From Rhodoferax sp. OV413 (GTDB taxonomy: Bacteria > Pseudomonadota > Gammaproteobacteria > Pseudomonadales > Pseudohongiellaceae), in assembly GCA_943330915.2 (NCBI GenBank), contig CALQJO020000007.1, positions 1 to 64,000 of the forward strand: a stretch of 64,000 bases of DNA, read 5' to 3'. Below, one piece after another: positions 60,322 to 64,000 of this stretch. A program made the translations under genes and the position numbers. How positions within the stretch are numbered: position 1 is the stretch's first letter; every line of letters begins with the position of its first letter. A model generated the notes under the pieces. The model was not told where the DNA came from. It made no database searches and worked only from the letters and a program-made list of their open reading frames with translations.

Positions 60322-62934
60322 ATGCGCATGGAACAAATGACAAGCAAACTTCAGTCCGCGTTGGCAGATGCTCAATCTCTGGCGCTGGGTAACGACAATA
60401 ATTTTATTGAGCCCGTCCATCTGATTCTGGCGTTGCTTGATCAGAAAAGCGGATCAGTGCGCCCATTGCTGTCGCAGACAGGCTTCAATATCAGCCAGCT
60501 GAAAACTGGATTGCAAACTGTATTCAATCGCCTGCCAAAAGTAGAAGGGACTGGCGGTGATGTTGCCATGTCGAATGAATTGGGCAGACTGCTGAATCAG
60601 GCTGACAAGATTTCCCAGAAAAACGGCGACAAGTTCATCTCCAGCGAGTCGGTTATTGTTGCTGCTATGTCTGACAAAGGTGAGTTGGGGAAACTTCTCA
60701 ATAGTTTCGGCATTACGGAAAAGGCTCTGGAAAATGCAATAGCCAACATTCGTGGCGGCGAAAAAGTAACTGACGCTGACGCTGAGGATGCGTTTCAGGC
60801 CTTGTCAAAATATTGTATTGACCTGACTGAGCGTGCAGAAAAAGGTGAACTTGATCCGGTGATTGGCCGCGACGGAGAGATACGGCGCACCATCCAGGTT
60901 TTACAGAGGCGTACTAAAAACAATCCGGTACTCATTGGTGAGCCAGGCGTAGGTAAAACCGCAATTGTGGAGGGGCTGGCCCAGCGTATTATCAATGGTG
61001 AGGTCCCTGAGGGATTAAAAGGCAAAAAAATCCTGGCTTTGGATATGGGTGCCCTGATTGCCGGCGCAAAATTCCGCGGCGAGTTTGAAGACCGGCTGAA
61101 GGCTGTACTCAAGGAACTGTCCAAGCAGGAAGGATCCGTCATCCTGTTTATCGATGAAATTCATACCATGGTCGGCGCTGGCAAGGCCGAAGGCGCGATG
61201 GATGCCGGCAATATGCTCAAGCCTGCACTGGCACGTGGTGAGTTGCATTGCGTCGGAGCAACAACGCTGGATGAGTATCGCAAATACATTGAGAAAGATG
61301 CTGCACTAGAACGTCGATTTCAAAAGGTTCTGGTCAGCGAACCTACCGAAGAGGACACCATCGCTATTCTGCGAGGTTTGAAAGAACGTTATGAGGTGCA
61401 TCACGGTGTACAGATCACCGACGCTGCCATCATCGCGGCCGCGCGCTTGTCACAACGATACATTCCTGATCGGCAGTTGCCTGACAAGGCAATCGATCTG
61501 ATCGACGAAGCTGCCAGTCTCATCCGTATGGAAATTGACTCCAAGCCAGAGGTAATGGATAAACTTGAGCGTCGGCTCATTCAGCTTAAGATCGAGCGCG
61601 AGGCCTTAAAAAAGGAAGATGATGAAGCTTCCCGGAAAAGACTTGAAAAATTAGCGGAAGATATTCTGCGTGTTGAGAAAGAGTTTTCAGACCTCGATGA
61701 AATCTGGAAAGCTGAAAAAGCGTCGGTCCAAGGCACGCAATCCATCAAGAGTAATCTCGAGAAGGCGCGTGCAGATCTGGAAGCTGCCAGGAGAGCGGGT
61801 GACCTGGCGCGTATGTCCGAGTTGCAGTACGGCGTGATTCCGAATCTGGAAAAGACGCTGGATATGTCAACGCAGGCTGAAATGATGGACATGCAATTGC
61901 TTCGGGATCGTGTCACAGAGGAAGAGATTGCAGATGTTGTATCACGCTGGACCGGTATTCCGGTTTCCAAAATGTTGCAAAGTGACAAGCAGAAACTGTT
62001 GCAGATGGAAGACGCTTTGCATAAGCGGGTGATTGGCCAGAACGAAGCCGTTACAGCGGTTGCCAATGCTGTCCGCCGTTCACGTTCCGGGCTGTCAGAT
62101 CCCAATCGTCCGAATGGCTCGTTCTTGTTTCTGGGCCCTACAGGTGTGGGCAAGACGGAGCTATGCAAGGCGCTGTCAGAGTTTCTGTTTGATACGGAAG
62201 ATGCCATGGTTCGCATCGACATGTCCGAGTTTATGGAACAGCACTCGGTCGCCCGGCTGATAGGTGCCCCACCGGGATATGTTGGTTACGAGGAGGGGGG
62301 TTATCTGACGGAAGCGGTTCGCCGGAGGCCTTACTCGGTGCTGTTGCTTGACGAGGTCGAGAAAGCGCACCCGGATGTCTTCAATATTTTGTTGCAAGTG
62401 CTCGATGATGGTCGCCTGACTGATGGTCATGGTCGAACGGTTGATTTCCGGAATACAGTTATTGTGATGACGTCCAATCTTGGCTCTGATCGTATACAGG
62501 AATTGATGTCTGCAGGGGTGCCAGATGATCAGACCTATGAGCAGGTTAAAAGAGATGTCATGTCTGTGGTTACCCGCCATTTCCGTCCGGAATTTGTTAA
62601 CCGCATTGATGAAACGGTGGTGTTCCATCCGCTGGCTGCGGCACAAATACGAAACATCGCCAATATACAGATAGCCTCACTAAACAAACGCTTGCAGTAC
62701 AACGATCTCAGTATCGAGGTGTCGCAGACAGTGCTCGACAAAATTGCCGCGCTTGGTTACGACCCGGTTTATGGAGCCCGTCCATTGCGTCGCGCGGTGC
62801 AGAACTGGATAGAGAACCCACTGGCTCAGCGTGTTATCCGCGGGGACTACAATCCGGGTGATCGAATTGTAGTTGATGTCAGCGCCGAAGGATTTGCGTT
62901 CAGCAAGCGCGAGGCTGGCAGTTTCCAGCCTTGA
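60322..62934 (+). CDS. clpB: ClpB disaggregase
   Basis: Hexameric AAA+ chaperone that, with DnaK, pulls proteins out of aggregates. The 870 residues have the N domain ([20 protein letters not shown]), NBD1 with Walker [10 protein letters not shown] near 206-214 and [17 protein letters not shown], and the coiled-coil middle domain near 400-530. NBD2 has Walker [10 protein letters not shown] near 605-613 and the pore loop GYVGYEEGG. The ATG gives the standard start ([11 protein letters not shown]). GAGGTG precedes it. The stop overlaps a TTGACA that may serve the next operon. Confidence 0.97.
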
Positions 62935-62958
62935 CAATGCCCGAAATAGTGGGAAAAT
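62931..62958 (+). promoter_or_regulatory. Putative sigma-70 promoter for the ilvB leader
   Basis: A perfect TTGACA at 62931-62936 overlaps the clpB stop. GAAAAT at 62953-62958 follows after 16 bases, a four-of-six match to TATAAT. A better -10, TATTAT, is at 62966-62971 but has no -35. Either would produce a leader of about 400 bases before ilvB. Confidence 0.4.
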
Positions 62959-62969
62959 CTCCCGCTATT
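62945..62969 (+). terminator. Strong hairpin just after clpB
   Basis: AATAGTGGGA pairs with TCCCGCTATT (10 bp, one G-U) around a 5-base loop, 10 bases after the clpB stop. No T tract follows, so it may be a processed 3' end or part of the downstream RNA structure rather than a classic terminator. Confidence 0.45.
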
Positions 62970-62989
62970 ATCAGGAATGAGTTCCCTGC

Positions 62990-63113
62990 GGGATTCAGTC
63001 CTGATAGACGCAGACTGCGAAGGTAATCCCTCCCCCCAATCTGCATTAGCCGGGTTGTGGCAAAAAGTGCCCACCCGGGGCTACTGCTTAGGTGTCAGAC
63101 AACTCCACCTAAG
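62990..63113 (+). ncRNA. Structured 5' leader RNA upstream of ilvB (candidate cis-regulatory element)
   Basis: Three consecutive hairpins can be read directly. First, GGGATT-CAGTC (62990-63000) pairs with GACTG (63013-63017) and AATCCC (63025-63030), leaving a seven-base bulge. Second, CCGGGT (63050-63055) pairs with ACCCGG (63073-63078), with GGCA/TGCC inside. Third, CTTAGGTG (63087-63094) pairs with CACCTAAG (63106-63113), with an 11-base loop. No protein frame explains them. A motif called ilvB-OMG has been described upstream of ilvB in marine gammaproteobacteria, as I recall; whether this matches is untested. Confidence 0.5.
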
Positions 63114-63221
63114 GTTCCAACACGTTACCACGTAAGGAGCCGGCATAAGCCAGGATGCTATGAAGATTTAATGTTGCACGGAAGGCTATCGCTGCGCTTG
63201 AAACTCATGGAGGTCCGGTTT

Positions 63222-63320
63222 GTGTTATGGAGCTGTCTTGCGGCTCCGTTACTCTTGATTATTGATCTGAGGATAATACTTTTACTGCGAAGATTCTGTC
63301 GTTCGACGGAGTCTCATTGA
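63222..63320 (+). CDS. Leu/Ile-rich attenuator leader peptide for ilvB
   Basis: A 32-residue leader peptide whose middle reads [14 protein letters not shown]: 7 Leu and 4 Ile codons within 14. It starts with GTG at 63222, with GGAGG at 63209-63213 eight bases upstream. In-frame ATGs at 63171 and 63207 lack good sites. The stop at 63318-63320 touches the start of a T-tract hairpin. Like the IlvL, IvbL and LeuL leaders, ribosome stalling on Leu or Ile codons would report on charged tRNA supply. The peptide itself has no expected function. Confidence 0.8.
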
Positions 63321-63344
63321 TGCTCTGTGGCATCCGATTTTTTT
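63291..63344 (+). promoter_or_regulatory. Transcription attenuator of ilvB
   Basis: Protector hairpin 1:2 is AGATTCTGTC (63291-63300) with GACGGAGTCT (63305-63314), 10 bp including two G-U. The terminator is GATGCT (63319-63324) with GGCATC (63329-63334), followed by CGA and seven T (63338-63344). Strand 2 can instead pair with 63322-63328 (ACGGAGT with GCTCTGT), which breaks the terminator. A ribosome stalled on the Leu/Ile codons ending at 63287 would cover strand 1 and favour the antiterminator. The terminator stem is short. Confidence 0.7.
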
Positions 63345-63361
63345 ATTGTGAGGCTAAGACT

Positions 63362-64000
63362 GTGGAATTGCTCTCTGGTGGTGAAATGCTGATTCGTGCG
63401 CTGCACGACGAGGGCGTTGAGCTGTTGTTCGGATATCCGGGCGGCGCAGCGCTGCACATTTATGATGCGATATTCAACCAGGATAAGGTGGAACATATTC
63501 TGGTGCGTCATGAGCAGGCTGCAACGCATGCTGCTGATGGATACGCCAGAGCCACCGGTAGACCGGGTGTGGTGTTGGTAACTTCGGGACCTGGCGCAAC
63601 CAACGCGATTACTGGTATCGCAACTGCGTTTATGGATTCAATTCCGATGGTGGTGATCTCAGGTCAGGTGGACAGTTCTCTGATCGGTTCTGATGCATTC
63701 CAGGAAACGGACATGGTCGGAATATCTCGCCCTATCGTCAAACACAGCTTCATGGTTCAGTGTGCAGAGGACATTCCGGTTATAGTGAAGAAGGCATTTT
63801 ATATTGCGACCACTGGTCGTCCCGGCCCTGTTGTGATTGATGTGCCTAAAGACGTTACAGACCCAGCGCGCAAGTTTGAATACCGTTATCCGGAAACAGT
63901 AAAAATGCGCTCTTACTCGGTTCCTTCAAAAGGCCATACCGGGCAGATCAGAAAAGCGGTAGAGATTCTGCTTTCAGCCAAGCGACCAATTATCTACGCC
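63362..64000 (+). CDS. ilvB: Acetolactate synthase large subunit (3' partial)
   Basis: TPP enzyme that makes acetolactate or acetohydroxybutyrate, the first common step of Val, Leu and Ile synthesis. The frame runs off the right edge after 213 codons. It begins [20 protein letters not shown] and contains [34 protein letters not shown] with the catalytic Glu that activates TPP, and [43 protein letters not shown] follows. This is closest in pattern to the IlvI/IlvB group. The start is GTG at 63362, with GAGG at 63350-63353, 18 bases after the attenuator T tract. The small subunit ilvH should follow outside the window. Confidence 0.95.

Follow-up and report, generated by a model that had tools for sequence, protein, structure and literature searches.

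The interval between clpB and ilvB in the stretch of DNA analysed here (64,000 nucleotides, hereafter the window) raises the question of whether the hairpin-rich RNA predicted upstream of ilvB, which codes for the acetolactate synthase large subunit, belongs to a known leader class, forms part of a leader-peptide attenuator, or represents something else. The upstream gene clpB (60322..62934, + strand), an ORF of 870 aa, ends in a stop codon overlapping a sigma-70-type promoter (TTGACA - 16 - GAAAAT, 62931..62958, +) found by consensus scan, and the ilvB ORF (63362..64000, +) starts with GTG and runs past the window end. The order is thus clpB, promoter match, a row of hairpins, a terminator-like hairpin with seven U, and ilvB. 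According to annotation by eye, ilvN comes next in the operon, and beyond it lie an ilvC-like gene on the opposite strand, a LysR-type gene and a pssA-like gene. GTG is the ilvB start in 62 of 66 leaders from the family Pseudohongiellaceae, order Pseudomonadales, to which the genus Pseudohongiella belongs. A promoter-like TTGAC with a loosely defined -10 element lies upstream of the structure in all 66, a count made without a chance control; these are the loci reaching ilvB, two of the 68 listed having been left out with ilvB outside the locus. The preliminary description had named a transcription start downstream of 63113 as an argument against its proposal, and the promoter-like elements predict a start upstream instead.

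The predicted fold of this leader is more stable than its composition would suggest. Positions 62935-63206 (about 270 bases) reach -100.2 kcal/mol versus -78.4 +/- 4.5 for shuffled sequences (z = -4.8, with none of 200 shuffles as good), and a longer transcript gives a z of -5.3. The clpB-ilvB intervals that were compared have one architecture in common, namely four hairpins, P1-P4, forming a conserved RNA core at 63009..63147 (+), preceded by P0 (62969..63006, +), a variable hairpin drawn from window folds, the sequence of which is unconserved. P1 (63010..63044, +; GCAGA / UCUGC) carries two-sided changes family-wide in all 11 modelled pairs, with 80.7% of cells paired; its inner pairs are weak in the genus of the window, and several are non-standard in the window itself. 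P2 (63048..63082, +) pairs AGCCGGG with CCCGGGGCU around an A-rich inner loop and shows two-sided changes in seven of eight outer pairs. P3 (63088..63112, +), made of UUAGGUG / CACCUAA with the loop UCAGACAACUC, is nearly invariant in sequence (95.9% of cells paired), while P4 (63113..63141, +; GGUUCC / GGAGCC, inner ACGU-UACC-ACGU) displays two-sided changes in four of six outer pairs and is recovered by an unguided helix scan in genus g8 as well as in g1. P3 and P4 are the best-conserved hairpins, whereas P1 and P2 are rewritten between clades. The P3-P4 span amounts to 40, 41, 42 or 43 bases in 30 leaders, a variation that excludes a reading frame through it. A helix closing the core, typical of most riboswitch aptamers, was not returned by the unguided scan, which carries no significance test.

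Among the hairpins of the preliminary description, 63050-63078 and 63087-63113 correspond to P2 and P3, but 62990-63030 straddles P0 and P1. The one placed directly after clpB (about 62948-62967) spans the -10 element and would not be whole in a transcript from that promoter; P4 was absent from the list. The broader claim, that of a long structured RNA with more structure than an attenuator needs, is borne out by the folding z-score and by compensatory changes in relatives, and such an excess makes a second input plausible.

These changes were counted in an alignment restricted to genus g8 and in a larger one; the latter was fitted to the model, so that the g8 counts, together with the unguided scan, represent the cleaner evidence. 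Model R2 comprises 14 sequences, all from g8, with the structure named above, which was drawn with the folds of all clades in view. In this alignment, the paired fraction of cells is 89.6%, two-sided changes affect 15 pairs and 49 cells versus 9.2 and 15.7 in shuffles, and the covariation score of 0.307 compares with 0.157 for shuffled alignments and no more than 0.098 with partners slid. Across 57 family sequences, the values are 90.4% of pair cells paired, 28 of 40 pairs with two-sided changes, 251 double-change cells versus 73 in shuffles, and a score of 0.331, slid structures reaching at most 0.079. The preliminary description had held that a lack of compensatory changes in the hairpins would speak against it; they are present in both alignments. 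P3 varies so little that covariation says little about it. The unguided scan recovers P1, P2 and P4 from the g8 sequences, and P4, P5 and P7 from those of g1, along with mutually incompatible short helices, one of them ranked second in g1. An earlier model, R1, was set aside, as P4 was misaligned and RNAalifold gave only 10 pairs.

Although the genus of the window contributed no training sequence, R2 finds the window core at 61.1 bits (E = 2.4e-14), the next-best matches in the window having E-values of 0.28 and 8.1. It also matches all 32 loci given (weakest E 4.1e-6), including the 14 training sequences and the near-copy L049, and all 57 loci of the larger set. From these alignments, the leader RNA is judged to be real and structured, its shape being kept more than its letters across much of Pseudohongiellaceae. 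With regard to contacts between hairpins, a pairing of GGUAAY (P1) with GUUACC (P4) fits nine g1 sequences (L001-L009), not the other clades looked at, and was rejected. A kissing contact of AAC (P3) with GUU (P4) is conceivable, but GUU is nearly invariant and hence offers no covariation readout.

The distribution of the RNA was then a matter of which genomes carry it and next to which genes. In the family, R2 matches 82 of 137 genomes at E < 1e-3 and 85 at E <= 0.1, in four of eight genera, and gives no match at E <= 0.1 in 52. As for the three weaker genomes, the match of G076, judged real, is truncated by the start of its contig shortly before ilvB, that of G123 has clpB on one side and ilvB on the other, and the sole match of G103 (E 0.047), with no ilvB nearby, was taken as chance. 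Second matches in G035 and G044, near an efflux-type gene in a locus without ilvB, and in G128, inside a long dnaE-like ORF (E 0.005-0.07 for the three), were likewise attributed to chance. Order-wide, 12 of 390 genomes match at E <= 0.01, all Pseudohongiellaceae and none other, in a search under stricter filters by which weak relatives can be lost; with the filters off, L108 (genome G008, of the same genus as the window and missed in the family search) gives 39.4 bits and L122 20.3 bits. In a search of the genus, 10 of 15 genomes have a match, the distant ones matching about 63008-63155 only, and the later, peptide-bearing part of the leader is less well kept among them. Positions 63000-63165 find 24 of 137 family genomes by BLAST; two loci, L030 and L031, with neither clpB nor ilvB, were dropped as probable chance matches. 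The RNA is, on the genomes searched, family-restricted with a sharp phylogenetic range.

Three further genera, g2, g3 and g7, were approached through ten ilvB loci, which have long upstream regions and beside which clpB was not found. R2 does not recognise these leaders, except in L114, where it picks up the P4 hairpin alone at 12.5 bits (E 0.066), and R3, a model of P4 alone trained on Pseudohongiellaceae only, gives no clear P4 match in L111-L113 and L115-L118 (g2, g3). Of note, GATTAYCC near the 5' end is common to L110, L114 and L119 (g7) and to L115 and L118 (g2).

The strong carrier loci examined always lie before ilvB, and nearly all directly after clpB. An exact P3-P4 pattern run over genome contigs returned 25 stretches, titled Gammaproteobacteria, Pseudomonadales, OM182 or Pseudohongiella, 19 of which have clpB before and ilvB after, and the remaining six one of the two, the other side being cut off. 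Among the R2 loci L057-L094 (n = 38), ilvB is downstream in 38 and clpB upstream in 37. In L084, the gene upstream of the RNA is homocysteine S-methyltransferase-like, as read by eye, and not clpB, indicating that the RNA travels with ilvB rather than with clpB. This bears on the idea of a stand-alone, trans-acting small RNA encoded between the two genes, any transcription into ilvB being a by-product of read-through. In the window, its own promoter-like element, stable folds and a terminator-like hairpin before ilvB would suit such an RNA, but the strong R2 loci always precede ilvB, even where clpB is not the neighbour, and outside the genus of the window no consistent strong terminator closes the RNA, so we regard it as very improbable. 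In L021, L046 and L048 (g6), the ilvB promoter sits between the arms of an inverted repeat, CAGTCTGCA ... TGCAGACTG, the right arm being the P1 5' strand; imperfect versions of the repeat occur in L018, L019, L022 and L038. The repeat may serve as an operator, or as a switch in transcripts that read through from clpB.

Whether the RNA belongs to a known class was addressed with Rfam. A cmscan of 62700-63600 against all 4227 families (Rfam 15) gave no match up to E = 10, and the assignment to ilvB-OMG (RF02919), raised as a possibility in the preliminary description, is thus not upheld by the Rfam covariance search of this region. Twenty relatives gave no match up to E = 1, and in 12 further family loci the only match, to RF01119 in L112 (E 0.29), falls outside the leader and was put down to chance. 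RF02919 exceeds its cut-off in none of the 137 family genomes and reaches E <= 1 in seven. As a positive control, it was found in L139 and L152 (family f41), with 108 and 126 bits, among 20 loci of other families. Across 381 genomes of the order, it reaches E <= 0.01 in 19. The top 13, which pass the cut-off, and the three ranked after them belong to f41; the remaining three, from f16, f20 and f26, are weak (18-23 bits), the one of them that was opened not lying at ilvB. A partial match in G357 was rejected, the region being judged coding by eye. By the gathering-score test, the leader is not a member of RF02919, and the lack of any Rfam match combined with covariation in relatives indicates that it is new. 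Two other candidates were also rejected: a cobalamin riboswitch, suggested by GCUACUG ... AAGCCAGGAUGC, has no Rfam match and the string is not kept outside the genus, and a T-box, suggested by UACCGCG, has no Rfam match.

The leader does share with ilvB-OMG its position upstream of ilvB, and ilvB-OMG is likewise a long structured RNA in Pseudomonadales, but one that passes the cut-off only in f41 (13 of 381 genomes), unlike the Pseudohongiellaceae range of the leader. The ilvB-OMG sequence can form a CUGCG-CUACCY-CGCAG hairpin resembling P4, and also a first hairpin with a UACC loop. The CUGCG-CUACC-CGCAG hairpin, 3' of the main helices, is our own reading and is not drawn in the consensus structure of Rfam, and the other ilvB-OMG helices have no match to P1-P3 by eye. 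Among the 16 ilvB-OMG loci L252-L267 (f41), six (L255-L260) have an M-A-T-A-x-x-E-Y-P-R-P-L frame that runs across the 5' hairpins, the M-A-T-A-x-x-E-Y-P-R part of which has no counterpart that we noticed in the leader. In the other members, the start differs or none is seen close by; L266 and L267 have similar bases in a different reading frame, suggesting that the bases may matter as RNA.

P4-like hairpins are not confined to Pseudohongiellaceae. In 26 ilvB leaders of other families, hairpins such as CGCG-UUACCU-CGCG were seen, and of 121 regions upstream of ilvB (15 Pseudohongiellaceae and 106 from other families), 39 contain a YUAYC-loop stem in sense and none in antisense, eight altered loop patterns giving 2-14 sense and 1-6 antisense. 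The stem is present in 18 of 80 regions fetched after the motif had first been noticed. The full P4 geometry is found in 17 of the 106 other-family regions (8 of 43 families) versus one in antisense, among them the ilvB-OMG loci L139, L152 and L170, while control loop patterns match 0-5 of 106, the one with five overlapping the motif itself. In the family leaders, the same geometry matches 45 of 66 in sense versus 8 of 66 in antisense. Over 79 other-family regions, R3 places six such hairpins (f2, f21, f35), all in sense, at ranks 1-6 of 9, with E-values of 0.34-3 each, none significant alone; over 26 more loci, it places three at ranks 3-5 of 10, the top two being something else. The full model R2 gives nothing significant in other families. 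Also in other families, two tandem YUAYC-loop hairpins, 32-36 bases apart, were observed in L151, L158, L166, L167, L168, L178 and L201, and two about 110 bases apart in the ilvB leaders of L144 and L154.

These observations can be read in terms of a diverged relative of ilvB-OMG beyond the reach of the Rfam model, the two belonging to one superfamily of Pseudomonadales ilvB leaders, which would be compatible with a cis-regulatory leader as set out below. The same gene, the same order of bacteria, the strand bias of the YUAYC-loop stem and of the P4 geometry, and the ranks given by the family-only model all argue for it, against which stand the individual E-values of the six hairpins and the other top ranks in the 26-locus set, the failure of R2 outside the family and of RF02919 within it, the unmatched P1-P3, the missing hairpin in the consensus structure of Rfam, and the wrong-strand matches of the P4 descriptor in 8 of 66 family leaders. 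We consider such a relationship possible but doubtful. As the regions are mutually related and the motif was chosen after viewing some of them, the P4 link to ilvB leaders of other families, ilvB-OMG included, is only suggestive and constitutes a lead rather than a demonstration. The further proposal, that in such a superfamily the invariant P4 module (asymmetric internal loop and YUAYC loop) would bind a shared signal, either a pathway metabolite or a transcription-complex protein, appears unlikely; if true, it would make the module a previously unrecognised riboswitch class or antitermination RNA.

Downstream of the core, the leader changes character. P5, a long helix joining 63142-63156 with 63213-63227 (63142..63227, +), appears in the MFE folds of L001-L006 and is limited to close species, being absent from those of L092, L098 and L108; part of it, GGAU (63153-63156) with GUCC (63213-63216), is listed by the unguided scan of g1. 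P6 (63229..63247, +) and P7 (63291..63314, +) are hairpins drawn from folds, the stem of P7 showing three covarying pairs in the unguided g1 scan. P8 (63319..63344, +), a consensus match of the terminator scan, consists of a hairpin at 63319-63334 and seven U at 63338-63344, the run ending 17 bases before the ilvB start. The leader thus combines the feature expected of a riboswitch, a covariation-supported structure upstream of a metabolic gene, with that expected of an attenuator, an intrinsic terminator before the gene, the latter as a consensus match. The P8 hairpin and a U-run of 5-7 are kept in L001-L005 and L007-L009 and not in L006, L092, L098 and L108, so that the window and seven of the 11 other leaders read from its genus have a terminator-like hairpin. 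Family-wide, 36 of 66 leaders have one versus 19.8 expected (10 shuffles each), a mild enrichment suggesting that termination may apply to only part of the family. In g8, the U-run is delayed and follows a covarying hairpin. As judged by eye, GGCAU (63142-63146) could pair with AUGCC of the terminator arm in several g1 species, the pairing being broken in L007, and no core-terminator pairing of this kind emerged from the unguided scan. In L007 and L008, tandem repeats (GGCTCAAGGCTG...) replace the P5/P6 region between P4 and ilvB.

It is to this part of the leader that the preliminary description had assigned a leader-peptide attenuator, with a weakly supported ORF at 63207..63320 (+). In such a ribosome-mediated scheme, a peptide with Leu/Ile codons would be translated from 63207 or from the GTG at 63222, stalling would open P6, and 63242-63249 (GGCUCCGU) would pair with 63306-63313 (ACGGAGUC), while the role of the upstream hairpins would be limited to the timing of RNA polymerase or to protection of the RNA. 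Part of this premise stands: the frame is open and rich in L/I/V (fraction 0.33-0.41) in L001-L005, and the in-frame GTG, with a loose Shine-Dalgarno-like match, is kept in all four closest relatives (L002-L005). The ATG, on the other hand, is kept in three of the four, L005 lacking it, start and stop together are kept in one, no Shine-Dalgarno-like match precedes the ATG, and a one-base deletion shifts later codons in L003-L005. The terminator-like P8 would fit the scheme, as would the alternative helix, which has eight pairs by eye in L001 and includes G-U pairs in L002 and L003, but in L004 and L005 the pairing of this helix is imperfect, and its formation alone would leave P8 intact. Furthermore, the conserved bases of the peptide region also serve P5 and P6.

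PMC10272879 re-reads ilvB-OMG as a uORF attenuator, its predicted uORF being rich in branched-chain amino acid and Thr codons, which lends the scheme a precedent upstream of the same gene. Among the nine clades of family leaders, however, no such uORF is fully conserved, none of at least 10 residues and at least 35% L/I/V having start and stop kept in all members of a clade. The closest approach is made by a GTG frame of 14 residues over P3-P4, in g6 (0.75), followed by a TTG frame of 11 residues in g1b (0.5), the former being ruled out as a general peptide by the changing P3-P4 span in other clades. A 52-aa frame over P0-P4 (62977-63135) has an in-frame TGA in P1 in seven of the eight other g1 sequences (L003-L009).

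A further observation comes from L092, L098 and L108, of the same genus as the window, which keep P1-P4 without P5, P6 or the peptide, the P4 loop lying 119-120 bases from ilvB versus 237-238 in L001-L003; L098 and L108 are nearly identical, differing at 5 of 301 positions. The conserved domain is therefore separable from the presumed attenuator, the region of which is simply missing here, and on this comparison the translation of a leader peptide is dispensable for retention of the conserved part. A functional peptide may exist in the closest species, but we find attenuation by ribosome stalling rather unlikely as the explanation of the leader as a whole, and P1-P4 as an input separate from the leader peptide is the best reading.

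We can thus propose, with moderate confidence and from comparative sequence data, that the RNA is a cis-regulatory 5' leader of ilvB, in which P1-P4 would be the putative signal-receiving part, acting on the downstream helices or on termination. The promoter at the end of clpB would start the ilvB leader transcript, P1-P4 would receive the branched-chain amino acid status, in the form of a metabolite or through a protein or other factor recognising the P3 and P4 loops, and the core would then bias the downstream helices toward or away from premature termination. The loops of P3 and P4 hardly change, in contrast to the variable stems of P1, P2 and P4, and are therefore the best candidate contact surface. 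Given that the scan returned no helix closing the core, a partner that is a protein or part of the transcription complex was given the same weight as a metabolite, and a direct ligand (riboswitch) and such a partner are about equally likely.

Several known systems invite comparison. Enterobacterial ilv leaders are leader-peptide attenuators. Like attenuators of this kind, for example ilvB-II of Corynebacterium (PMC10272879), the leader has a terminator-like hairpin before ilvB and, in the species closest to the window, a Leu/Ile-rich frame; unlike them, its peptide is poorly conserved, and the conserved part is the upstream multi-hairpin domain. The ilvB motif of Leptospira (WRC-14-1), which PMC8632094 presents as a weak riboswitch candidate with seven representatives, in Leptospira only, is likewise a rare element before ilvB. 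The ppGpp riboswitch that precedes ilv genes in Firmicutes, according to PMC10272879, also exerts structured RNA control on the same pathway, and has no Rfam match here. Our search, mostly without subscription literature, listed no publication with a title on this ilvB leader, and found none on Pseudohongiella riboswitches or on ilvB riboswitch candidates of Gammaproteobacteria.

The best reading, drawn from sequence comparison, is that of a new cis-regulatory leader RNA of ilvB, likely regulatory and with no match in Rfam 15, which probably controls the amount of a branched-chain amino acid enzyme. It would add to what Rfam 15 holds a structured ilvB leader with strong covariation and a sharp range. 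Relatives that lack the peptide still retain the conserved part, which calls into question the custom of treating every ilv leader as a peptide-based attenuator. Finally, if the P4 link were to hold, the signal controlling acetolactate synthase would become directly testable across the whole order.
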